Positions 20,226 through 43,761 of a DNA stretch of 64,000 nt are shown one piece after another. Under the pieces are notes generated by a model that searched no databases, was not told the DNA's origin, and saw nothing but the letters and a program-made list of their open reading frames with translations. The stretch comes from an uncultured Gammaproteobacteria bacterium (GTDB lineage: Bacteria; Pseudomonadota; Gammaproteobacteria; Enterobacterales; Psychrobiaceae). Location: the NCBI GenBank assembly GCA_913060565.1, contig CAJXRU010000001.1, forward strand, positions 1 to 64,000, given 5' to 3'. A program made the position numbers and the translations under genes. Numbering within the stretch: the stretch's first letter is position 1; every line of letters begins with the position of its first letter.

Positions 20226-21998
20226 TTACAGCTCACACATCGGTTGGCTAGTCAGAGTTTGACTGATTATTTTTTGCAACATATCAGTGTTTATTTTTAA
20301 CTGACGTAAATTAGTGATGAGGCGATTATCTGCTAAAAGTTCACTTAGTGATAATTGATGATACACATGATGGGTGAGATACATCGCTAACTCCAAACCT
20401 ACAATGAGTTCTCGTTCGGCGCCAGCATTCTGAGCTTGTGATGTATTACTGGCAGAAAGTGCATTAACAATGGAGGGTTGTGGCGCCCATATTTTAGCAA
20501 GTGCCATGCTGACCTTTTGCTGTTTCGCGCTATTGTTATGGCCTGCAAGGCTATAAGCATGATGAACATGACACTGAGTAATATCTAAAGTGCGTTTGCG
20601 AGCACCATTGATAATGGTGCGCTCTAAATAAAGCGGTGCTAAATTAAGTAAGATGAAAATAGCGAGTTGATGAGGCTGCACGTGCTGACATTGCTGGGCA
20701 ATCCATTGACTTGTAGATACTGCAAAGTTTATTTTTTGGCGTAACGTTTTACCGTTGATAAAGGTAAATTGACTCAGTTGTGATTCGAGTGCCAAACGAC
20801 TTAACAACGGCTTTGCTTGCGCATAACCCGCCATTTGTAACGCATGAAAACTACTATTGAACTGGCTACTTGGGTATTGCTGTTGTAGGTGCTTTATCAG
20901 TTGATCGCCAAGTACGGGTTGACGTGCAATTAATTCGCTAATGGTTTCTTGTTCCGGAATATGGGCACTAAGTTCGTTAAATAATAGCGTTAAGTCATCA
21001 CTTGGCTTTAATCGTTGTGTTTGGTCGCTAATATCTTCTAAGGGCTGATCAATAAATTCATGTAAGCTTTGATTAATGATACGTTCTGAAATAGCACTAG
21101 GCGGGGCTAAATAGTGCTTAAGCGTGTCAATCTCATGTTGTTGTGTCGCTGACTCAAACTGCAAGTGGCCTTGTTCAATACTAAAGGCTTGGCAATGCAA
21201 TTCGTTTGTATAATGAGATACCTGCGTAATTAATGCATGCTGAGTTTTATTGAGTTTGTAAATGAGACCCGGTAATGGTTTGTCTACTAAACTAATCAGC
21301 AGATTTAATAAATCGATATCATAATGTTGACGATGTTGTGATAGGTAGGATAACGCCTGTTTGGTGCGATAACCTGCGCGATTGATACGCGGAGAAGTTA
21401 AATCAATAAACTTAGCAATGAGGGACAACATCCGCATATTATCAGTGAGCTGGTGGTGCGTGATTTTTGTCGGAAAACCGCTTCCGTCAAGTAATTCGCG
21501 ATGGCTAATGACATCGCTTAATGCGCTTTTTTCAATGACATGATACTTATTTAAAAACTGGCCACTGCTGATCGGGTGTTGCTGATATTGCTTAACCTGT
21601 TGCGGTGATAGTTTCTTTTGCTCAAAGAGCGACGCTGAGATCCCTGTTAACAATAGGCTGAGATTCATTGTTAACGCGCTACTAATAAATAGTTTTGCAT
21701 GTTGACCGTGATAGTGCTGACGATGGCAAAACTTAGCGGCAATAATGCCTTGGCAAAAAGCATGATTAGTGTGGGGCAAAAAATGCTTTGGATAACAGAG
21801 CGCTTGCCCTAATACCAGATCACTATTCTCTTCGTTGAGGCTAAACAACCAGTCACTTAGTACTAAAATCTGTGCTTTCAATCGCTTCACGGCGCCTAAT
21901 GTCAATTCTTGCGTCAATTGCTCAAAGGTAGCATTGAGTTGTGTTTGCTGTTCGAGGCACTTAGCGGTTAATAAAACTGGCTCTTTAGGCGCGTTCAT
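20226..21998 (-). CDS. Degenerate HD-GYP plus HDOD-domain signalling protein
   Basis: 590 residues. The first half (about 60-260) aligns with HD-GYP phosphodiesterases: HPISSGQFLNK and SHRELLDGSGFP are visible, but the catalytic His-Asp of the HD motif is missing (SALTMNLSLLL stands where an ALLHDIGK pattern is expected). It is therefore probably catalytically dead. The second half (about 330-560) looks like an HDOD domain (ETISELIARQPVLGDQLIKHL, FHALQMAGYAQAKPLLSRL). Its ATG overlaps the xni stop by four bases (ATGA), so it is cotranslated with xni and ppnN. Its role is unknown, and it may act as a c-di-GMP or nucleotide-responsive scaffold. Confidence 0.75.
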   Translation of the reverse strand: MNAPKEPVLLTAKCLEQQTQLNATFEQLTQELTLGAVKRLKAQILVLSDWLFSLNEENSDLVLGQALCYPKHFLPHTNHAFCQGIIAAKFCHRQHYHGQHAKLFISSALTMNLSLLLTGISASLFEQKKLSPQQVKQYQQHPISSGQFLNKYHVIEKSALSDVISHRELLDGSGFPTKITHHQLTDNMRMLSLIAKFIDLTSPRINRAGYRTKQALSYLSQHRQHYDIDLLNLLISLVDKPLPGLIYKLNKTQHALITQVSHYTNELHCQAFSIEQGHLQFESATQQHEIDTLKHYLAPPSAISERIINQSLHEFIDQPLEDISDQTQRLKPSDDLTLLFNELSAHIPEQETISELIARQPVLGDQLIKHLQQQYPSSQFNSSFHALQMAGYAQAKPLLSRLALESQLSQFTFINGKTLRQKINFAVSTSQWIAQQCQHVQPHQLAIFILLNLAPLYLERTIINGARKRTLDITQCHVHHAYSLAGHNNSAKQQKVSMALAKIWAPQPSIVNALSASNTSQAQNAGAERELIVGLELAMYLTHHVYHQLSLSELLADNRLITNLRQLKINTDMLQKIISQTLTSQPMCEL

Positions 21999-22807
21999 GA
22001 GGAGGGTTTATCCGTCGTAGGAGCTATGTAGGCATAATTACGTAAGTTGATGCCCAATGCAATATCTTGTTTTAGTAAGACAAGTCGATAGCTGGTTTGG
22101 GCTTGTTCTTTAGCGGCGAGCAATTTATTGAGGAGTTTATTGTCGGGATCGCTGCAAGAAAAAGCCGTTTTTAAATCACCAAACTCTGACAAAATTGACA
22201 GTGCCGCTTTTGGGCCCATGCCACTAACTCCTGGGATTTTATTACCACTTTGGCCAACAATAGCCCAATAATCGAGTAACTGTTGTGGGCGCACGTTAAA
22301 CTTACGATAAACTTGTTCATGATGAACCCATTGACCTGAGAAGTGATCCCAAATGTTGATTCCTTGTGGAATCAACTGCCAAAACCCACTATCTGTCGAG
22401 ATGATTGTGCACTGGTTGTTATGCTGACTAATCTTGTGGGCCAAGGTTGCAATAATATCGTCAGCTTCATCATGGGCAGGTACTATCGACTGTACACCTA
22501 TATTTTGCCAATGTTGGCGAATGCTTGGCAATAGAGAGTTTAAGTCTTCTGCCATTGGTTTACGGTCTGCTTTGTACTCAGGGTAAAATGTCTTACGCCA
22601 ATGGTCACCATCACCGTCGAATACGGCAATGATATGACTAGGACGATGCCCTTTTATGAGTTTGCGAAGTGCTTGATTGGTTAAATCAATAAGCTGTTGG
22701 CTGTCAAGTTGCGCGGTTTTTGAAAAACCGCGCAATGCGCCGTCAATTCGCCTAATAAGATTTAGGGCATCAACGAGTACAACGTGAATAGGTGTTTTAT
22801 TGCTCAT
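21995..22807 (-). CDS. xni: Flap endonuclease Xni (exonuclease IX family)
   Basis: 270 residues (E. coli 251). It resembles the 5'-nuclease domain of DNA polymerase I. The acidic metal ligands VLVDALNLIRR and VFDGDGDHWRK, STDSGFWQL and the DNA-binding H3TH motif GVSGMGPKAALSIL are all present. The C-terminal tail is slightly long. The start overlaps the end of ppnN by 11 bases. In E. coli, xni and ppnN are also near neighbours. Confidence 0.92.
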   Translation of the reverse strand: MSNKTPIHVVLVDALNLIRRIDGALRGFSKTAQLDSQQLIDLTNQALRKLIKGHRPSHIIAVFDGDGDHWRKTFYPEYKADRKPMAEDLNSLLPSIRQHWQNIGVQSIVPAHDEADDIIATLAHKISQHNNQCTIISTDSGFWQLIPQGINIWDHFSGQWVHHEQVYRKFNVRPQQLLDYWAIVGQSGNKIPGVSGMGPKAALSILSEFGDLKTAFSCSDPDNKLLNKLLAAKEQAQTSYRLVLLKQDIALGINLRNYAYIAPTTDKPSS

Positions 22808-24161
22808 CTTTAATTATTTGGTAGCACGGCTCGTAAGCGCTTCCTGGTAGTTTCATACGGCATTGGGTAACAAAGCTTTGTAATAAAATATCCATTTTAT
22901 CCATTAATTCTACATCGCCTGATAGTTGATACAGGCCATGTTCTTTAATAGCTAAAATGCTTTCTTGTTTTACATTGCCCGCAACGATACCAGAAAACGC
23001 ACAACGAAGGTTAGCGGCAAGTGATTGAATGTTATCTGTTGGGTGTAAACTCAGCAGGCTCATATTGTTGTGTGTCGGTTCAAATGGTTGTTGAAATGCG
23101 ACAGGGATGTGCAAGCTCCAGTTGAAACGGTAAGAATCTTCCCGCTCTTTTCGATAAGCTCGGACATCTGCCATCCCTTGTTTCATTAGTTTTCCAACCT
23201 TGGCGGGATCATCGACGACTATCGTATATAAACTTTGTGCTTTAGGGCCTAGCGTCGTACCAATGAATTTATCAATTTGCTCAAAGTACGCCTTACTGTC
23301 TTTAGGTCCGGTGAGAATTAATGGAAATGGATAGTCTTTATTTTTTTCATCAAGCAAGATGCCAAGTAAGTATAACAACTCTTCTGCCGTGCCAGCGCCA
23401 CCCGGAAAAATGACAATGCCATGACCAACACGAACAAAGGCTTCAAGGCGCTTTTCGATATCTGGCAAGATGACTAATTCATTAACAATTTGATTTGGTG
23501 GCTCTGCCGCAATAATCGATGGCTCTGTAAGACCAATATAACGTCTGTTCTCAACGCGTTGCTTGGCGTGGCCTATGGTGGCGCCTTTCATTGGGCCTTC
23601 CATCGCTCCGGGTCCACAACCTGTACATATATTAAGTTCACGTAGTCCGAGTTCGTAACCAACATCACGGGTGTATTGATATTCGATGGCATTAATTGAA
23701 TGCCCACCCCAACACACGACAATATTGGGATCAATAGGATCGGTAATGAGTTTTGCGTTACGCAGCCCTCTAAAAACTCGGTTGGTGATGAAATGTCCTT
23801 CGTCATCAGTGCTGGCAACTTGATCAAGATAATGATCACTTAAGTAGACGATATCTCTTAATGTCGAAAAGAGGTGTTCTTGAATACCGACGATGATATT
23901 GCCATCAACAAAGGCATCTTGAGGTGGGTTAATAAGCGCTAATTGGGCGCCACGTTCTCGGATAACCACTTCAATGTCAAAGTCTTTATGCTTTTCCATC
24001 AAAGCATCGGCATCATCAGTTTCGATACCTGAACACAATACGGCTAAGGCACAACGCCTAAAGAGTTGATAATGAGTAGAATTAACGTTGTTTTGTAAGC
24101 GTGATGCTTCAATTTGAGAAAGTTGTTCTAAGCTGCCTCTTGGGCTGATTTTTACGATCAT
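22797..24161 (-). CDS. ppnN: Nucleotide 5'-monophosphate nucleosidase PpnN
   Basis: 454 residues from the ATG at 24161, preceded by AAGGAGTGTCT. The length equals E. coli PpnN (YgdH) and the start aligns with its MITHISPLGS end. It hydrolyses purine and pyrimidine nucleoside monophosphates to base and ribose 5-phosphate and in E. coli is stimulated by (p)ppGpp. The LOG-fold motif is visible (FPGGAGTAEELLYLLG), as is CTGCGPGAMEGPMKGA. A longer frame to 24188 has no better ribosome site. Confidence 0.94.
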   Translation of the reverse strand: MIVKISPRGSLEQLSQIEASRLQNNVNSTHYQLFRRCALAVLCSGIETDDADALMEKHKDFDIEVVIRERGAQLALINPPQDAFVDGNIIVGIQEHLFSTLRDIVYLSDHYLDQVASTDDEGHFITNRVFRGLRNAKLITDPIDPNIVVCWGGHSINAIEYQYTRDVGYELGLRELNICTGCGPGAMEGPMKGATIGHAKQRVENRRYIGLTEPSIIAAEPPNQIVNELVILPDIEKRLEAFVRVGHGIVIFPGGAGTAEELLYLLGILLDEKNKDYPFPLILTGPKDSKAYFEQIDKFIGTTLGPKAQSLYTIVVDDPAKVGKLMKQGMADVRAYRKEREDSYRFNWSLHIPVAFQQPFEPTHNNMSLLSLHPTDNIQSLAANLRCAFSGIVAGNVKQESILAIKEHGLYQLSGDVELMDKMDILLQSFVTQCRMKLPGSAYEPCYQIIKDEQ

Positions 24162-24588
24162 AGACACTCCTTGTAAATCTATTACCAATCAAAGATCAAC
24201 ACCCCCTAATCTCAGGTTAGTTGTTGATTGGCTTATCTTCAACTTAGCACTTATCACTTTGATTTTACAGTAAGCTCTAGGGTTTGTTGAACTTTTCGGT
24301 TCGAATTTTGTTCAATCTAAAAGGATTTTGGGCAAGGCATGAGGATTGATGCTGGGTTTACCCCAGTGAATGACGAATAACGCCGCACAAAATACTTTTA
24401 GGTGAATCCTACGGACAGCATTTGTTTGTTATTTCTACGGCGTTATCGCCTATTCGTGTATTGCTACATGGATGTAGCTCATTAGGATAATGCAGGAGCT
24501 ATTATCGAGCCAGCTACACCACATAGGCTCTGCCTTGTAGAACCCCCAAACAAATTGCTGCAAAAATGAACTCAAAAGCCAACAAACC
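24162..24588. other. Gene-free stretch with a dispersed-repeat palindrome
   Basis: About 427 bases without a credible gene. CTACATGGATGTAG at 24464-24477 is the inverse of the CTACATCC/CTGCATCC palindromes at 30.2 kb. The surrounding text (TTACCCCAGTGAATGACG, GGCGTTATCGCCTATTCG) also looks like decayed intergenic repeat rather than coding DNA. The right end (24540-24588) is the 3' flank of the diguanylate cyclase gene. The ppnN promoter should lie at about 24165-24300 but I cannot pick it with confidence. Confidence 0.55.
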
Positions 24589-25986
24589 CTAGTAAATAAT
24601 AACGCGGTCGCGCCCTTGGCGTTTTGCTTGATAGAGGGCTTTGTCTGCGCGATCAAAACTTACTTGGCGATCTGAATCACCCGCTTTGACCTTAGTGACG
24701 CCAATCGATAATGTAATTTGTACTTTCTTATCTTTAAACTTAAATGGAATTGATTTTATGCGCTCACGCAGGCGGTTAAGTACCGTATTAATAGCGTTTT
24801 GCGGCAGTTCTGGAATAAGTAAGACGAACTCTTCGCCGCCATAACGAGCAATAAACTCACTATCGCGAATGGAGTTGCTAAGTGCTCCCGCAATGACTTG
24901 CAATGTTTTGTCGCCAGCACTGTGTCCATAATTGTCATTGATAGATTTAAAATTATCAATATCCGCAACAGCAACCCATAATGCTTGACCAGATTGTTTA
25001 GCTGCCGAAAAGTTTGATTCAAATTTTTGTTCTAAGGCTTTTCGATTTGGCAGCTTGGTCAGAGAGTCTTGCATATTAATAAGCCGCTGCTCAACTAGTT
25101 GTGAATGATAAGTAGAAGCCTCTTGCTCTGTTTGTGCCAATTTTTTATTGAGTTTATCTATTTGTTTTTGTTGCAGCGTAAATAACTTGCTATCAATGTC
25201 TGTTTTATCAACTAAAGCATTCTGTAACAGCGTAATTTCATTGCCCAGTGCTTTGGCATCTGAATCACTAACCTTCATGCGCTTAGATAAGGCTTTTAGG
25301 TTACCAACATTATGCTGGCTAGCCTTGTCCCATTGCTGTTGCTGCTGTTGTCCTGCGCGGCCAATATCTTCGCTCTGTTGATTGATAACCTTTAACTCAC
25401 TAATTTCACGATGAATGTCTTTAACAAAGTATTTCGAATGCTCTTTTTCGCTGAGCATGCTCTTTAATAAAAGGGCTATGACCTCTTCAACATTCCCAAG
25501 TAGTTGTTCGGTGGTTTCGACGGTAGATAGGGCACCCGCTAACTCGTTGAGCGCAGAGTGCAGTTGGTAATGAATATCAATAGTTTCATAAAGATGGGTT
25601 AGGTTGTCTTTATGGGTCAATATTAGCGTCCCTTGTTCCTCTTTTACACCATTGAGTTCATTGGTTAATTGAGCCGAGACTTGGGCATACAGTGTGATAA
25701 AGCGCTCTAGTTGATTCATCACTAATTGTAGCGAACTAGCTGTAATTTCAGGGATGTCTTTGGTGGAAACTGTATCTACTGAAATCAATTCTAATGCATC
25801 GATATGCTGCGTAAATTCTAACTGCTTTTGTTTGATAAACTGTGTTAGAGCGATTTTTAAATTATTTTGCGTGGCACTGTTAATAGTCGTTTTTTCTTCA
25901 TTGAATAACAAACGCAAGATCTCTTCATCAAAATGAGGAGATTGTTTCATCAATGCTTGTAGTTGCGCTAAGAGATTATCGAGCAT
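24589..25986 (-). CDS. Diguanylate cyclase (GGDEF) with N-terminal coiled coil
   Basis: 465 residues, apparently cytoplasmic. The helical N-terminal region (about 1-300, with coiled coil near 225-300) resembles that of the two-domain polar-localised cyclases of marine gammaproteobacteria. The C-terminal GGDEF domain (about 305-465) has the active-site YGGEEFVLL near residue 382. The upstream inhibitory site reads RDSE instead of RxxD, so product inhibition by c-di-GMP may be weak. It lies 25 bases downstream of the TPR/pseudo-GGDEF gene, suggesting one transcript. Confidence 0.93.
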   Translation of the reverse strand: MLDNLLAQLQALMKQSPHFDEEILRLLFNEEKTTINSATQNNLKIALTQFIKQKQLEFTQHIDALELISVDTVSTKDIPEITASSLQLVMNQLERFITLYAQVSAQLTNELNGVKEEQGTLILTHKDNLTHLYETIDIHYQLHSALNELAGALSTVETTEQLLGNVEEVIALLLKSMLSEKEHSKYFVKDIHREISELKVINQQSEDIGRAGQQQQQQWDKASQHNVGNLKALSKRMKVSDSDAKALGNEITLLQNALVDKTDIDSKLFTLQQKQIDKLNKKLAQTEQEASTYHSQLVEQRLINMQDSLTKLPNRKALEQKFESNFSAAKQSGQALWVAVADIDNFKSINDNYGHSAGDKTLQVIAGALSNSIRDSEFIARYGGEEFVLLIPELPQNAINTVLNRLRERIKSIPFKFKDKKVQITLSIGVTKVKAGDSDRQVSFDRADKALYQAKRQGRDRVIIY

Positions 25987-26011
25987 GTATTTGTCCGAGT
26001 CATTTTACTAA

Positions 26012-28198
26012 TTACAGATCGTAGTATGGAATACTTTGCCAATCAATATCTTGATCTATTCCTGTCTCAACAGTCAACATGTGATTATTAACAAGTTGTA
26101 ACCACTCTTTTCGTGTCGGACAGGTAAACATTGCTGTGCTACTGTTGTCTTTCTCTGTGAGGATTAACCAGTTGTTAATTGCTTCCCAAGACTGTTGTTG
26201 TTTAACCGCACTTAATGCTGTGAGAGATAGATTGACCATGTTTTTCGCTTGAATTAAGTTAACAGGCTTGTCCGTTGCTTTTTGTTTAATACAACCAAGC
26301 ATAATCGTATTTTGAGTTGCCAGCTCTTGCAGCTCATCAGGAATTAATGATTGATAATGTTTGATGAGTAGCGCAAATCGCTGACCCACCTGTTGAGTGT
26401 CTGGTGGCGTCTTAGCAAAAACAAACGTATCTTCGCTGAGTTTATACAACGGTTGTTCGATAAACTGGCTTAGCTCGCGAATGAGATGGAGCCGAAATGC
26501 TTGTGCTCGGTCAACGTCCATAACATCCAACAAATGAGTCAAAATTGGCAGTTTTAATGCGAAAACATGAGTGTGTTGAATGAAATGTTTATTGACCGTT
26601 TTTAGCAATAACTGTTCATTATGTAGGTACATAACTTGTGTCGCTTTATCAATATCATTTTGCTGTCGCCATGTCGTAATTTGACGTTTGGTTCGAAGAT
26701 AAATAATAAAACAAATAATGAGTAAGACGCTTAACACATAAAGCCATTGCGTCATGTTGTTTACGCTGCGCTTTTGTTGCGCTGAAATTAATTGCTGTTC
26801 ATTAAGTAAGTTCTTGGTGTCATAAAGGTTTGCTTTAAGATCGGCGTTATCTGACACAAATGACGTATTCTTTTCATCAAGCTTTTTGGTTAGTTCTTCA
26901 TTATTTTGCATTTGAATGGTCGAATAACGAGAAAAATACTGAGCAGCTTTTTCGTAATCTTTTAGTGCTAAATATGATTTGGCCAAATATTCGAGCGTTT
27001 GATGTTCTGCGTCAGTTTGCTTATGTTTAGTGGCAGCTGCCAGCGCTAATTCGCCATATTGAATTGTTGGCTGATACGACTGTTGAGAAAAATAAACTTC
27101 TGCCAGACGCAGGTGATTAGACATTAAGAAATAGCCATGGCCCATCGCTTTGAAATGCCTATTTGCTTCATGTAAGTATTCTAATGCTAATTTTATCTTT
27201 CCTTGTTCTTTATAAATTAGCCCAGAATTATGGGTTGCTAATGCAAGGTAATGATACCCTGTTTTCCCTTCCAGAATTTTAATCGCGTTAAGGTAATGCA
27301 TTAACGCTGAATTTAAATCGCCAGACTCCTCATAGGCAATGGCAAGATTATTATAGGCAGAAGGTAAGTGCGTTAACTTGTCTGTTTGCGCTTCACGAAA
27401 ACGTAATGACCGGGTAGCATAATCTATCGCTAAGTCATAGCGTTTGTTTTTTCGATAATAACGGGACAACTGATGAAGAATATCGGGACGGCGAGAGCTG
27501 TTGGTTGCCAATGCAATATCATAAGATTCAATAAGTTGTTGCTCTGCATTCGCGGGATCGTTTTTAGCAATATAATATTTTGCGAGTTCTAATGTTGGTG
27601 TTACTAAATAGCTTCTATCATCACTTTTCTTCGCCTGTGCTATCGCATTTTGAAGATATTCCTTTGCGTCATCAGGTTGTTTTAGAAACAAAAGCAGTGA
27701 CCCTAAACGATAATTAGCGACCACTGATAGCGCTAAAAAGTCTTGATCTTTTTTAGATTCATTAGATTGGCTTAATCGGGTAATTGTTTGCTCGAATATC
27801 GCAACAGCGTCGTCAAATTGATCAAGTCCAATCGCTGTATTCATGCTATGTAGGAACCACGCGTTGGCAGCGACAATTGGCTTAGTATCGCTCGATAGTT
27901 TATTGATTAATAAGTCAATGTTCTGTTTGGCGAGTTCATATTGAGAGGTATGATAAAGATAACCAGAAGCGACTATTAAATTATGGACGCTAGCATTCTC
28001 AATATCCTGTTGATGTTGATTAAACCATTGCTCTTTTTGTGATTTATCCATCGAACGATATTTTTTAACTTCTGGTAATTGTTCGGCAAAGAGTAATCGA
28101 TGAGTTACTGCATCAGTAGCGGCAACGGAAATCGAATAACTTAGCAATAAAATAGATAGGATACTTTTGGACAAAAACTGTAATGATTTCAAACTCAT
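26012..28198 (-). CDS. Membrane TPR protein with degenerate GGDEF-like domain
   Basis: 728 residues. There is a signal peptide (cleavage near 27, SISVAA), then a periplasmic array of about eight TPR units (about 60-420, for example SAYNNLAIAYEESGDLNSALMHY), a coiled stretch, one membrane helix (WLYVLSVLLIICFIIYL, near 490) and a C-terminal cytoplasmic domain. That domain has the size and order of GGDEF, but the active loop is replaced (YKLSEDTFVFAK where RYGGDEFVLL is expected). It is probably a sensor with a dead cyclase domain paired with the active cyclase downstream. The TPR and membrane parts are clear; the pseudo-GGDEF reading is inference. Confidence 0.78.
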   Translation of the reverse strand: MSLKSLQFLSKSILSILLLSYSISVAATDAVTHRLLFAEQLPEVKKYRSMDKSQKEQWFNQHQQDIENASVHNLIVASGYLYHTSQYELAKQNIDLLINKLSSDTKPIVAANAWFLHSMNTAIGLDQFDDAVAIFEQTITRLSQSNESKKDQDFLALSVVANYRLGSLLLFLKQPDDAKEYLQNAIAQAKKSDDRSYLVTPTLELAKYYIAKNDPANAEQQLIESYDIALATNSSRRPDILHQLSRYYRKNKRYDLAIDYATRSLRFREAQTDKLTHLPSAYNNLAIAYEESGDLNSALMHYLNAIKILEGKTGYHYLALATHNSGLIYKEQGKIKLALEYLHEANRHFKAMGHGYFLMSNHLRLAEVYFSQQSYQPTIQYGELALAAATKHKQTDAEHQTLEYLAKSYLALKDYEKAAQYFSRYSTIQMQNNEELTKKLDEKNTSFVSDNADLKANLYDTKNLLNEQQLISAQQKRSVNNMTQWLYVLSVLLIICFIIYLRTKRQITTWRQQNDIDKATQVMYLHNEQLLLKTVNKHFIQHTHVFALKLPILTHLLDVMDVDRAQAFRLHLIRELSQFIEQPLYKLSEDTFVFAKTPPDTQQVGQRFALLIKHYQSLIPDELQELATQNTIMLGCIKQKATDKPVNLIQAKNMVNLSLTALSAVKQQQSWEAINNWLILTEKDNSSTAMFTCPTRKEWLQLVNNHMLTVETGIDQDIDWQSIPYYDL

Positions 28199-28347: not shown

Positions 28348-30129
28348 ATGATTAAAAAATTAGCCCTGAGTAGTTTGATGCTAGCTTGCTTTAGTGCAAA
28401 TGCTACTGTTGATTACAATATCGATTTAACTAAGCCAGAGCATCATGTTGGCAAAGTAACTATGACCCTGCCAGCAGGTAGTAATTCACCAAGTGTTATG
28501 ATGCCGGCATGGCGCACTGGTAAGTATAAAATTTTAGATTTGGCCAACGGTGTTCGCCATTTTAAAGCGACTGATGCCAAAGGTAACGAGTTATCATTCG
28601 AGCATACAGACAAAGCAACTTGGGTGATTAATAATCCGAGTCAAGATGAAATTACCGTAAGCTACACCGTTTACGCGAATGATTTAGGCACTCGTACTCG
28701 TCATATTGATGATAGCCATGCTTATTTGGATGCAACGGGGATTTTTATGTACGATCCTGCTCGTCGCCAAGAAGATATTAGAGTGACTTTAGATGTGCCT
28801 GAAACATGGAAAACTTATGCGGGTATGACACGTGCCGGTGAGCATCAGTTTGTTGCTGATAACTACGACATTTTAGTCGATTCTCCAATTGAAACAGGTA
28901 TCAGTGAAGTCTTCGATTTTAAAGAAGATGGCAAAGATTACCAATTAGTGATTTGGGGTGAAGGTAACTACGACGCACCTGCAATGGCTAAAGATTTACA
29001 AAAAATGGTTAAATCGAGCCAAAATATTTGGCAGGGTTACCCATTTGATAACTATGTATTTATGGTACATGCGACAACCGATGCTCGCGGAGCCACTGAG
29101 CATTTGAATTCAACGGTTATTCAACGTAAACGTTTCACTTTTGCGCCTCGCAAACAGTATTTAAGTTTCTTGAATACAGCTGCGCATGAGTTTGTTCATA
29201 CGTGGAATGTTAAAGCGTATCGCCCACAAGGTGTTGCTGAATATAATTATCAACGTGAAAACTATACTGATTTGTTGTGGGTATCTGAAGGCTCAACCAG
29301 TTATTTCCAAGAGCATTTACTACAGCAATCTGATTTGATGTCGCAAAAAGAGTTCTTTAGCGCATTATCTCGCCGCATCGATGGTCATTTAAAGAAACCT
29401 GGTCGTAAAGTACAGTCAGTTGCCCAGTCTAGTCATGAAAGCTGGATTGCACTCCCGGGTGATTTTGCTTACAACAACAGTGTAAATATTTACTCTGAAG
29501 GTTACATGGCGTCATTAGCCATGGACTTCCAGTTACTGTCAGATTCTGATCTAAAAGCAGGCTACAGTGAACTCCACGGTGAGTTATTTAAACGCCACCG
29601 TCTACCTAAACCTTTTAATTCTCGTGACATGAAAACTATTGCTCAAGACTTAACGGGTAAAAGTTACGAAAACTGGTGGCAAGAAAACGTTGAGTCACCA
29701 ATTAAAATCGACTTTGACGCGCTGCTAGCAAAAGCTGGTTTAGAGTTTGTGTACCCTAAGAAAACCAAAGAGATTTCTACGACAGGTTTTTCAAGCTATG
29801 ACAAAAATGGTTTATTAACATTATCTCGTGTATTTGCTGATTCAGCAGCTTGGAAGGCTGGATTAACAACTGGTGACCAAATCGTAGCGATTAATGGCTT
29901 GAAAGTGACGCAAGGCAGTTTAAAAACTCGTTTAGCACAATACAAAATAGGTGACGAAGTAACAGTTACGTTATTTAGACGTGATCGATTGGAAGAAAAA
30001 ACGCTGACGTTAACGGCTAAAAAAGATAAAAAGCCAATGATCCGCGTTGTTGAGAGCCCAACTCATAAGCAAAAAGCATTTTATAAAGCTTGGCGCGGTG
30101 TTGAGTTAGAAGTTCCTAAGAAGAAATAA
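28348..30129 (+). CDS. M61 family metallopeptidase with PDZ domain
   Basis: 593 residues with a Sec signal peptide (MIKKLALSSLMLACFSANA). It has an N-terminal beta domain, then a gluzincin catalytic domain with HEFVH at residues 280-284 and the downstream glutamate region LLWVSEGSTSYFQE. A C-terminal PDZ domain lies at about 475-560 (SRVFADSAAWKAGLTTGDQIVAINGLKV). This matches M61 glycyl aminopeptidase-type enzymes, probably periplasmic. It is monocistronic, with a strong terminator after it. Confidence 0.93.
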   Translation: MIKKLALSSLMLACFSANATVDYNIDLTKPEHHVGKVTMTLPAGSNSPSVMMPAWRTGKYKILDLANGVRHFKATDAKGNELSFEHTDKATWVINNPSQDEITVSYTVYANDLGTRTRHIDDSHAYLDATGIFMYDPARRQEDIRVTLDVPETWKTYAGMTRAGEHQFVADNYDILVDSPIETGISEVFDFKEDGKDYQLVIWGEGNYDAPAMAKDLQKMVKSSQNIWQGYPFDNYVFMVHATTDARGATEHLNSTVIQRKRFTFAPRKQYLSFLNTAAHEFVHTWNVKAYRPQGVAEYNYQRENYTDLLWVSEGSTSYFQEHLLQQSDLMSQKEFFSALSRRIDGHLKKPGRKVQSVAQSSHESWIALPGDFAYNNSVNIYSEGYMASLAMDFQLLSDSDLKAGYSELHGELFKRHRLPKPFNSRDMKTIAQDLTGKSYENWWQENVESPIKIDFDALLAKAGLEFVYPKKTKEISTTGFSSYDKNGLLTLSRVFADSAAWKAGLTTGDQIVAINGLKVTQGSLKTRLAQYKIGDEVTVTLFRRDRLEEKTLTLTAKKDKKPMIRVVESPTHKQKAFYKAWRGVELEVPKKK

Positions 30130-31339: not shown

Positions 31340-33025
31340 TTAGATTTCTTGCTTGATAGGGAAGTTAATTGTGTATTCAAGCCCTTCGCCAGGAGCACTT
31401 TGAGCTGTAATTTCACCACTAAAAGATTGGGTGACAATGTTATATAAAATGTGAGTGCCTAAACCACTGCCACCTTGGCCACGTTTGGTGGTAAAAAATG
31501 GTTCAAATAACATCACAAGATTTTCTTCACTAATGCCATTACCGTTATCTTTATAGCTAATGTAAACCGTTTTTTCGTCAGTTTTAAAGGTAAATGTCAT
31601 AACGCCTTGGTCAATTCCATCAAAGGCGTGAACAATGGAATTGAGAATAAGGTTTGTGAACATTTGTGACAACGCACCCGCTCGGCAATGTAATACAATA
31701 TCTTCATCGCCATAGACTTCGACTTTGTGTTCTGTCCGTTTCAGTTTCGGTTGTAATGACGTAATAACTTCATTGAGATAAGAGATTAGATTGACGTCGC
31801 GAATCGCTTCACTGGTTTGATCAACTGCAATATCTTTAAAACTTTGAATTAGCTGAGATGCTTTATTTAAATTGGAGGTGAGTAATTCACAGCTATGATT
31901 GGCATCACTGATAAATGTTTGCATCTTGGTTTGGGTCAGTGTTTTGCCATTGATTTCTTTAGATAGCTGTTCGACACATTCGGACAGGTAGGTCACTGCG
32001 GTGACGCCGATACCCACAGGTGTATTGATTTCGTGAGATATCCCCGCCACTAAACTACCCAATGACGCCATTTTTTCAGATTGAACGAGTTGATTCTGAG
32101 TTTGGGTTAACTGAGCGAGTGAATGCCTTAGCTCTCGCTCACTTTCAACTAACTCTTCTTTTTGCAGTGCCAGCTCTTGATTTGCCTGACTAAGCGTTGA
32201 GGTTTTTTTGGTAACTTCTTGCTCTAGGTCGAGATTCTGTTTATCTAGTCGTATGTTAGCGTCGACTAATTCACTTTGAGCTAATTCCAAGTTGTCTTTA
32301 TATTCAATGAGTTTATTGATAAGTAAATTAAAGGAATCGGTGAGGACGCTAAGTTCATCATTTTGTCCACTAGGTGGATCGAGCTTTGACTGACTTAGAT
32401 TAGACAGGCTTATTTGGCTAATACCATAACTAAGCATTTCAAGTGGTGTCGTTAGTAGATTATGAAATAGTCGCTTAATGACATAACTAATCAAGAAGAT
32501 ACTAAACAATGCTCCTATCATCGGAAACATGGTTTGTACTATGACAGCAGAATAGATGTTTGAAATATTAGACAGAATAATAATATTGCCAACGTTATGC
32601 CCTTTATTACCAGCTTGTCCATCTGTCACTATATAATCGAGGCTACCATTGAAACCAAAATACTCATGGAATTCGACGGATTCGTTTTGTTTAAAGGATT
32701 TGTAATTGTCGATTGCATAATTAGTGTCTAAACCACTGCGATAGCGCACCGTGTCGTATTCATCAATGACTAACACGGCTTGTACTAGCTTCATATCAGA
32801 AAGGCCTTTACCGATAGCGTCAATCTGTCGATCATTTAATTCCCAAATTGCTTGGCTGAGGCTATCGTCAATCGTGTGCTTAAGTTGTGTTAACTCGGCG
32901 CTGATTTCTTTTTTAACAGACATATAACTAAACAGTACTTGAACGGCCATGACTGTCATCGTTAATAAGACATAGGCTAACAACACTTTGTTTAATAGCT
33001 GTTTTGATATACTGACTACGGCCAT
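31340..33025 (-). CDS. Membrane sensor histidine kinase (orphan)
   Basis: 561 residues from the ATG at 33025 (AAGG seven bases upstream). There are two membrane helices (about 15-35 and 165-185) enclosing a periplasmic sensor of about 125 residues, then a HAMP-like linker and a long coiled coil. HisKA follows (SEKMASLGSLVAGISHEINTPVG), then HATPase with NSIVHAF, DNGNGIS and GQGGSGLGTHILYNIV. No response regulator gene adjoins it. Its kinase core is clearly related to that of 61898-63415 (both have a SFKxIAVxQ stretch). The ligand is unknown. Confidence 0.9.
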   Translation of the reverse strand: MAVVSISKQLLNKVLLAYVLLTMTVMAVQVLFSYMSVKKEISAELTQLKHTIDDSLSQAIWELNDRQIDAIGKGLSDMKLVQAVLVIDEYDTVRYRSGLDTNYAIDNYKSFKQNESVEFHEYFGFNGSLDYIVTDGQAGNKGHNVGNIIILSNISNIYSAVIVQTMFPMIGALFSIFLISYVIKRLFHNLLTTPLEMLSYGISQISLSNLSQSKLDPPSGQNDELSVLTDSFNLLINKLIEYKDNLELAQSELVDANIRLDKQNLDLEQEVTKKTSTLSQANQELALQKEELVESERELRHSLAQLTQTQNQLVQSEKMASLGSLVAGISHEINTPVGIGVTAVTYLSECVEQLSKEINGKTLTQTKMQTFISDANHSCELLTSNLNKASQLIQSFKDIAVDQTSEAIRDVNLISYLNEVITSLQPKLKRTEHKVEVYGDEDIVLHCRAGALSQMFTNLILNSIVHAFDGIDQGVMTFTFKTDEKTVYISYKDNGNGISEENLVMLFEPFFTTKRGQGGSGLGTHILYNIVTQSFSGEITAQSAPGEGLEYTINFPIKQEI

Positions 33026-33259
33026 TAACACACCTTAGTTATCTACATTTGCATCTAATTGTTAGCATCGTAGTAGTTATTGAGAATTCTAAACGTTAAT
33101 ACAATTCAGACATTGGACTGATCTATTATTGAACATATACGAAAATGTCTGCAATGTGCAAACGTCTTTCATGTAAAATTAAGAAAAAATAATGATTAAT
33201 TTAAAAAATAGTAGATAGTCATTAAGATAGCAATTAATCGCTAAATAAAAGAGAGCAAT

Positions 33260-42831: not shown

Positions 42832-43761
42832 TTATAAAATATCTGTTTCGTATTCTTTTTCTAGTTGGATGACACGATTTCTGCCAGCTTCTTTAGCCTG
42901 ATATAACGCCTTATCTGCTCTTGCTAAAACTAATGATTCATCATCTTTGTCATCATCGTGATAAACAGAAACACCGCAACTAATAGTTACGTCAATGACA
43001 TGTTCGTCGATAATAAAGGGAGTACGAGATATATTGTCACAAACACGCTGATAAACCACAGTTGCGTCTACTTGGTCTATGGGGGTAATTACAACAAATT
43101 CTTCGCCCCCGTAACGACCAATTAAGTCATAATCGCGTAGCGCATGTTGCATGCGTTTAGTCACTTCAATAATCACTTTATCACCGACTAAATGACCATA
43201 GGTATCATTAATTTTTTTAAAATGATCAATATCGCACATACCAATACAAAGCACTTGTTTAAGTCGCTCTACACGTTTCATTTCACGGGGAATAGCTTCC
43301 ATGATTGCACGCCTGTTGAATATTCCTGTAAGAGCATCATGACTTGCTAACAGAGTTACTTCGGCGAGAGTGTCGTTGAGTTTGTTTTGAATTTCAATCA
43401 TGCGCTTACCTACTTGAAGGCGCACTTTTAGTTCATCACTATCAAAGGGTTTGGCGACATAATCATTGGCTCCGCGAGATAACCCTTCAACAATGTCATT
43501 AGATGATGTTCTTGATGTTAGCAGTAATACATAAGGTGGGCTTTGTGGATTTTGTGCAATAGCACGCTCACATACTTCAACGCCATTTAAGTTGGGCATT
43601 TCCCAATCGAGTAACAATAATTCTGGCGGGTTTTCTTGCTGCATGATGTCCCACGCTTGCTGACCATCTTCAGCAATGATTACATCATAACCCCAAGGTT
43701 TGGTGATTGATTGCAACATCGTACGAGACAGTTTGCTGTCGTCGGCAATTAATAATTTCAC
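42832..43761 (-). CDS. Response regulator with GGDEF domain
   Basis: 309 residues. A receiver (about 1-120) has DD at the start and phospho-acceptor Asp52 in LLLLDWEMPNLNG, with LTSR and KPFDSDE. The GGDEF domain (about 140-305) has GRYGGEEFVVI and a complete inhibitory RxxD site (RDYD). So it is an active, phosphorylation-controlled and product-inhibited diguanylate cyclase (PleD/WspR-like). It is monocistronic with no linked kinase. Confidence 0.95.
   Translation of the reverse strand: MKLLIADDSKLSRTMLQSITKPWGYDVIIAEDGQQAWDIMQQENPPELLLLDWEMPNLNGVEVCERAIAQNPQSPPYVLLLTSRTSSNDIVEGLSRGANDYVAKPFDSDELKVRLQVGKRMIEIQNKLNDTLAEVTLLASHDALTGIFNRRAIMEAIPREMKRVERLKQVLCIGMCDIDHFKKINDTYGHLVGDKVIIEVTKRMQHALRDYDLIGRYGGEEFVVITPIDQVDATVVYQRVCDNISRTPFIIDEHVIDVTISCGVSVYHDDDKDDESLVLARADKALYQAKEAGRNRVIQLEKEYETDIL

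Follow-up and report, generated by a model that had tools for sequence, protein, structure and literature searches.

A tetratricopeptide repeat membrane protein with a degenerate GGDEF domain encoded in tandem with a diguanylate cyclase: an ancient locus of marine bacteria and a possible cyclic di-GMP control unit

In a 64,000-nucleotide stretch of DNA from an uncultured gammaproteobacterium of the Psychrobiaceae (contig CAJXRU010000001.1, positions 1 to 64,000; the whole stretch is called the window below), two adjacent open reading frames (ORFs) on the minus strand code for a tetratricopeptide repeat (TPR) membrane protein of 728 amino acids (28198..26012; Pfam TPR_12, E = 4.7e-24) and, after a gap of 25 nt, for a predicted cytoplasmic diguanylate cyclase of 465 amino acids (25986..24589; Pfam GGDEF, E = 2.3e-44). 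The positions, strand and spacing of both ORFs agreed with an earlier annotation of this DNA (the original prediction), in which the TPR protein was proposed to carry a catalytically dead GGDEF domain able to dimerise with, and gate, the neighbouring cyclase. The analysis described here assigns a GGDEF fold to the C-terminus of the TPR protein, points to a dead site in every family member examined, and shows the TPR-cyclase pair to be an ancient locus, common to many marine bacteria. The explanation that we tentatively favour, as possible rather than probable, is that the pair forms a two-gene cyclic di-GMP (c-di-GMP) control unit, in which the TPR protein would be a membrane receptor or scaffold for docking, placing or tuning the cyclase, with a further role of its own.

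Pfam matches and hydropathy gave the TPR protein an N-terminal hydrophobic stretch (residues ~8-26), the TPRs, a coil, one transmembrane segment (~481-502), a C-terminal domain and a tail, in this order. Since the transmembrane segment is followed by the basic motif RTKR, the C-terminus should be cytoplasmic, and the repeats are predicted to be periplasmic. No match for the C-terminal part was found in Pfam or NCBIfam. Comparison by hhalign of this domain from 26 orthologs with 29 cyclase GGDEF domains of like loci resulted in a probability of 97.1 (E = 6e-11, 150 columns), and the negative control, in which the N-terminal halves of the cyclases were used, in a probability of 0.2. When the profile of the domain was compared with solved structures, GGDEF chains ranked first (FimX, E = 1.2e-10). 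Singly, six of the 26 orthologs match Pfam GGDEF at E values up to 1, and the window protein does not.

A model of the window domain (residues ~502-669; 26192..26695, minus strand) was obtained with AlphaFold2 from the window sequence and 43 Vibrio rows, with a predicted local distance difference test (pLDDT) score of 78.3 and a predicted template modelling (pTM) score of 0.75. Structure alignment (VIA) of this model with DgcZ gave Z 13.3 over 156 residues at 3.1 Å; the structure matches were mostly GGDEF chains, a few class III-type cyclases appearing from Z ~11. A Foldseek search was weaker and mixed, with 12 matches at E ≤ 0.001 headed by V. cholerae LapD and including adenylyl cyclases. 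The model of the V. fortis ortholog had a pLDDT of 80.5 and a Z of 15.2. Profile comparison and modelling thus agree in identifying the C-terminus as a predicted GGDEF fold with GGDEF sequence homology, as the original prediction had supposed.

In the hhalign alignment the sequence SEDTF occupies the site of GGEEF in the TPR protein, the metal-binding D342 of the cyclase corresponds to K, and no RxxD was found at the position of the inhibitory site (I-site). The protein consequently lacks both GG(D/E)EF and the metal-binding Asp expected of an active cyclase. The same holds for the motif in the relatives: GG[DE]EF was absent at the GGDEF site in the alignment of 26 TPR proteins (0/26) and from the TPR proteins of 80 Vibrio loci (0/80). 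Judged by these residues, the site is dead in all members examined, and the degenerate loop reported originally was joined by loss of the metal-binding residue. No description of this domain was found in the open PMC literature.

Behind the GGDEF fold, a tail of ~59 amino acids (26015..26191, minus strand; seen in the alignment of the 26 orthologs) is kept across the TPR protein family, with the consensus ...AIxxGLIKVxSS...IxW and, in the window, the sequence ...NNHMLTVETGIDQDIDW. In a search of the class (276 genomes), the window's genome was the only one, among the matches listed, in which the profile of domain and tail aligned over almost its whole length; the others listed were mostly generic GGDEF proteins aligned at profile positions 3-142 to ~170 of 230, which leaves the tail largely unmatched. 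Partial exceptions covered positions 7-184 (G288), 44-224 (G414) and 4-204, the last with two internal stops (G477).

The cyclase carries the motif RYGGEEF with intact catalytic residues, which are invariant across 29 aligned non-Vibrio GGDEF domains, and it therefore looks like a working, probably active diguanylate cyclase. It showed no hydrophobic 19-mer above 1.6, in agreement with a cytoplasmic location, and Pfam gave no TPR match in it. The claim that it had lost the inhibitory RxxD was correct in that no RxxD is present. "Lost" is too strong, however, because the I-site reads RDSE (RxxE), a conservative change at the sequence level; among 32 cyclase orthologs inspected by eye, 16 have RxxD, 10 RxxE and 6 neither.

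The N-terminal half of the cyclase (25090..25986, minus strand) is helical or coiled. The family PF20975 (DGCcoil) was matched by 29/32 cyclase orthologs, and not by the window cyclase (E up to 1) or anywhere else in its genome. By hhalign, the window-type coil (3 rows) aligned at a probability of 96.9% (E = 1.7e-10) with its counterparts in other families (25 orthologs), a figure to be read with the ease with which coils match in mind. Profile homology and synteny together place the window cyclase in the DGCcoil family as a putative diverged member, though below the PF20975 cut-off. A coil unrelated to DGCcoil was considered and rejected on the 96.9% match, with the same caveat that coils align readily. 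Among solved structures, profile search with this half returned only apparent chance coiled-coil matches. PF20975 was found above cut-off in 81/276 genomes of the class and in 0/14 controls. Outside the order, the neighbours of DGCcoil loci are, by eye, nuclease-like, dsbA-like or cytochrome-like, and no TPR partner was recognised within short flanks. In addition, DGCcoil cyclases outside the order repeatedly adjoin a gene with the C-terminal motif FPSWRP...DHILV...SDHLP (nuclease-like by eye). The term "DGCcoil" was not found in the open PMC literature.

The TPR gene was detected by profile search (E ≤ 1.8e-84, one place counted per genome) in 116/247 genomes of the order, and in 106 of the 116 the cyclase lies directly downstream. 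This number is made up of 99 genomes established from coordinates and seven Vibrio established by reading the locus, the 17 loci without a listed cyclase having been read individually. The conserved tandem order supports a functional link between the two genes. Across families the order is a queF or M61 gene, the TPR gene, the cyclase gene, ppnN and xni, with M61 in the upstream slot in several families and queF in others. ppnN is found immediately 3' of the pair in every read locus that holds it. When 33 ppnN loci were read, 26 contained both genes, six the cyclase alone and one the TPR gene alone; the count omits L072, L077, L078, L080, L081, L099 and L100, which have no ppnN. The 26 loci with both genes include L068 (G079), whose TPR gene is broken into ORFs of 546 and 200 amino acids by a frameshift or sequencing error. 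Family f16 (G082, G023, G066, G047, G097) has a second, unlinked place that matches much of the TPR profile (E 1e-74 to 1e-83), perhaps a paralog of the TPR protein away from the cyclase.

In the Vibrio set, which comprises 80 named Vibrio loci and includes V. mimicus and V. metoecus and not V. cholerae, the layout is queF-TPR-cyclase-ppnN-xni, and the cyclase follows the TPR gene in 76/80 loci. Among these 76, its motif is SGEEF in 54, GGEEF in nine, AGEEF in six, TGEEF in two and other or not found in five. The consistent lack of an intact motif in the TPR proteins examined, set against the varied motif of the Vibrio cyclase, suggests that the dead domain is ancestral and that in Vibrio the live one is now in decay. 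CdgG of V. fischeri is reported to have SGEEF, with a non-consensus first motif residue, and CdgG of V. cholerae is called non-functional (PMC11575326). CdgG is also listed under RxxD (PMC4624772), and VC0900-901 is given as one operon in which VC0901 is hypothetical (PMC9201469). The V. mimicus cyclase ortholog has RxxD and SGEEF, and the Vibrio locus position, SGEEF and RxxD fit the description of V. cholerae VC0901-VC0900 (cdgG), whereas the window cyclase keeps GGEEF. The Vibrio cyclase thus fits CdgG by sister species, motif and context, V. cholerae itself lying outside the 80 loci.

Both genes are under purifying selection, the dead domain included. Relative to the nearest relative, whose TPR protein is 85% identical, the ratio of nonsynonymous to synonymous substitution rates (dN/dS) was 0.055 in the TPR gene and 0.076 in the cyclase gene, values that are rough since dS is 1.5 to 2; dN of the tail was 0.05. 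With ppnN and xni as controls, evolutionary rates in 22 loci gave a partial r of 0.31 (p = 0.006) for the dead domain and the cyclase coil, of -0.07 for the dead domain and the GGDEF domain of the cyclase, and of 0.47 for the latter and the periplasmic part of the TPR protein. These correlations are suggestive only; at the level of the order, the first two values speak weakly against a main contact formed by a GGDEF-GGDEF dimer.

In the control unit that we tentatively favour, the TPRs would bind a periplasmic ligand or protein, and this binding would lead to a change in the cytoplasmic pseudo-GGDEF domain. The latter would dock the cyclase, by way of either the coil or the GGDEF domain of that enzyme, thereby placing the cyclase and tuning its dimer formation, and c-di-GMP would be made near the membrane or at a pole. 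The link between the two proteins would be helpful rather than obligatory, and the TPR protein would have at least one further role. Physical gating by a heterodimer, as originally proposed, is plausible; the contact itself, whether it activates or inhibits, and the signal from the periplasm are inferred.

Several observations weigh against this explanation. In 10/116 genomes of four families (nine genomes from f12, f25 and f21, plus G008), no cyclase accompanies the TPR gene, which lies directly before ppnN. The first nine of these loci, on reading, have short gaps with no cyclase ORF of at least 90 amino acids left. No other DGCcoil protein (PF20975) was found in the ten genomes, a negative that is uninformative for G008 because PF20975 misses the window's own cyclase. 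Conversely, the cyclase occurs without the TPR gene in 6/33 loci, four of family f7 and two of the window's genus. In 4/80 Vibrio loci (four species or strains) the TPR gene is kept and the cyclase lost, and in most Vibrio the motif of the cyclase itself has decayed. The dead domain retains 77 to 90 of 91 conserved columns in eight cyclase-less Vibrio TPR proteins, and its relative rate in Vibrio is only slightly faster after cyclase loss (0.67 vs 0.53, p = 0.08). Moreover, all gene pairs correlate in rate in 63 Vibrio loci, and gene speed confounds the rate test, since the species tree is tracked more closely by fast genes than by the slow control genes. Since the TPR protein persists where the cyclase is lost, it should have a further role, and since it outlives the cyclase in at least four families, cyclase gating cannot be its whole job. 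As each gene also survives alone, the dead domain probably serves for docking or control, rather than as a partner that simply switches the cyclase on and off. Whether constraint is relaxed once the cyclase has gone was also considered; the rates differ in the expected direction, and no conclusion was drawn at p = 0.08.

Two options stay live, gating of the cyclase and a hub independent of this cyclase. For the latter, the TPR protein would be a hub or sensor of general use in the membrane; the partners docked by its pseudo-GGDEF domain could be other cyclases, a phosphodiesterase or a protein outside c-di-GMP signalling, and the adjoining cyclase would be just one customer. Survival of the TPR gene after cyclase loss, where no DGCcoil protein was found elsewhere, and the continued conservation of the C-terminal domain in such cases would be explained directly, and the window genome offers 52 GGDEF-domain places (profile search) as possible clients; adjacency of the cyclase in 106/116 genomes is more than a general hub needs, and we regard this alternative as somewhat unlikely. 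A bolder version, which we consider unlikely, would make the TPR proteins an unrecognised class of membrane receptors. With a GGDEF docking domain that was dead from the ancestor onwards and a private tail, they would act as a hub that binds GGDEF domains and persists after loss of its own cyclase. In Vibrio, where the cyclase would be on its way to becoming a second pseudo-enzyme (SGEEF) or be deleted, what began as a sensor with its enzyme would now signal without catalysis, steering other cyclases.

Shared expression of old neighbours in a conserved block (queF/M61, ppnN, xni), with no physical contact, would account for the fact that ppnN and xni, for which we know of no c-di-GMP role, are linked as tightly and that either gene of the pair can be lost alone. 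We find it quite unlikely, given that both proteins carry GGDEF-fold domains, one of them dead in all members examined, and that the 25-nt gap is consistent with a single transcript. LapD is known for inside-out signalling, and the first place of V. cholerae LapD among the Foldseek matches of the window model would suit a pseudo-GGDEF domain acting as a receptor of a nucleotide (c-di-GMP or GTP) that signals outward to the periplasmic TPRs; the I-site position without RxxD, the lost metal-site residues and the lack of an EAL domain make such a receptor highly improbable. A control unit built on docking of the cyclase stays our tentative preference.

Genomes of this kind hold ~50 GGDEF domains, and how each of them stays specific is an open question, for which a conserved putative membrane receptor, its GGDEF domain dead and its gene next to that of a live cyclase, offers a concrete, testable case of specificity through pseudo-enzyme docking. 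The natural series of loci, with both genes, either one alone or a decayed cyclase, allows the role of each part to be asked. In addition, the little-studied CdgG locus gains a likely partner, and the results illustrate that Pfam misses some dead GGDEF domains.

In the window, the pair is followed by ppnN (22797..24188, minus strand; PpnN_C, 3.9e-52), which served as synteny anchor, and then by xni. Upstream, the divergent neighbour is an M61 peptidase gene (28348..30129, plus strand; Pfam 4.8e-49), in agreement with synteny. Downstream of xni, a protein of 590 amino acids (20226-21998, minus strand) matches Pfam HD_5 (3.7e-16) and reads HRELLDGSGFP, the position at which HD-GYP proteins carry the GYP motif, with no clear HD pair by eye; from its sequence it is possibly a degenerate HD-GYP protein and thus a further c-di-GMP-type pseudo-enzyme near the locus. 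Another GGDEF domain is found at 42874-43347 (minus strand; 312-amino-acid frame, 4.8e-45), and a histidine kinase at 31340-33031 (minus strand; HATPase 6e-19, HisKA very weak at 0.12) is conserved beside rdgC in the genus.

Among known systems, V. vulnificus RcbAB is similar in being a bicistronic pair of a TPR protein and a cyclase, in which the TPR and the C-terminal region of RcbA raise the activity of the operon cyclase (PMC12282931). It differs in that the RcbB cyclase itself has TPRs, whereas the window cyclase has none, and in that, within the accessible part of the paper, the C-terminal region of RcbA is without an identified domain and no periplasmic or membrane placement is described. 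In E. coli, degenerate GGDEF domains bind other GGDEF domains; CdgI and the like share with the window protein an inactive GGDEF domain, and the text seen reports for them neither a TPR sensor nor a tandem cyclase (PMC5635695). LapD-type proteins combine GGDEF and EAL domains, whereas Pfam found no EAL domain in either protein of the window pair. In P. aeruginosa, localisation and activity of DgcP, a soluble protein of ~670 amino acids, need FimV, a membrane TPR protein that binds DgcP (PMC7033161). The likeness lies in a soluble cyclase dependent on a membrane TPR protein, and the difference in that the TPRs of FimV are cytoplasmic and no GGDEF-fold domain is described for it in the accessible text. 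DGCcoil proteins outside the order are of a length similar to that of DgcP, and some lie, by eye, near dsbA-like, cytochrome c4-like and nuclease-like genes. The gene context of dgcP presumably fits such neighbours. Taken together, these precedents would cover each step of the proposed mechanism, namely heteromers of degenerate GGDEF domains, a TPR partner that raises cyclase activity, and the need of DgcP for FimV.

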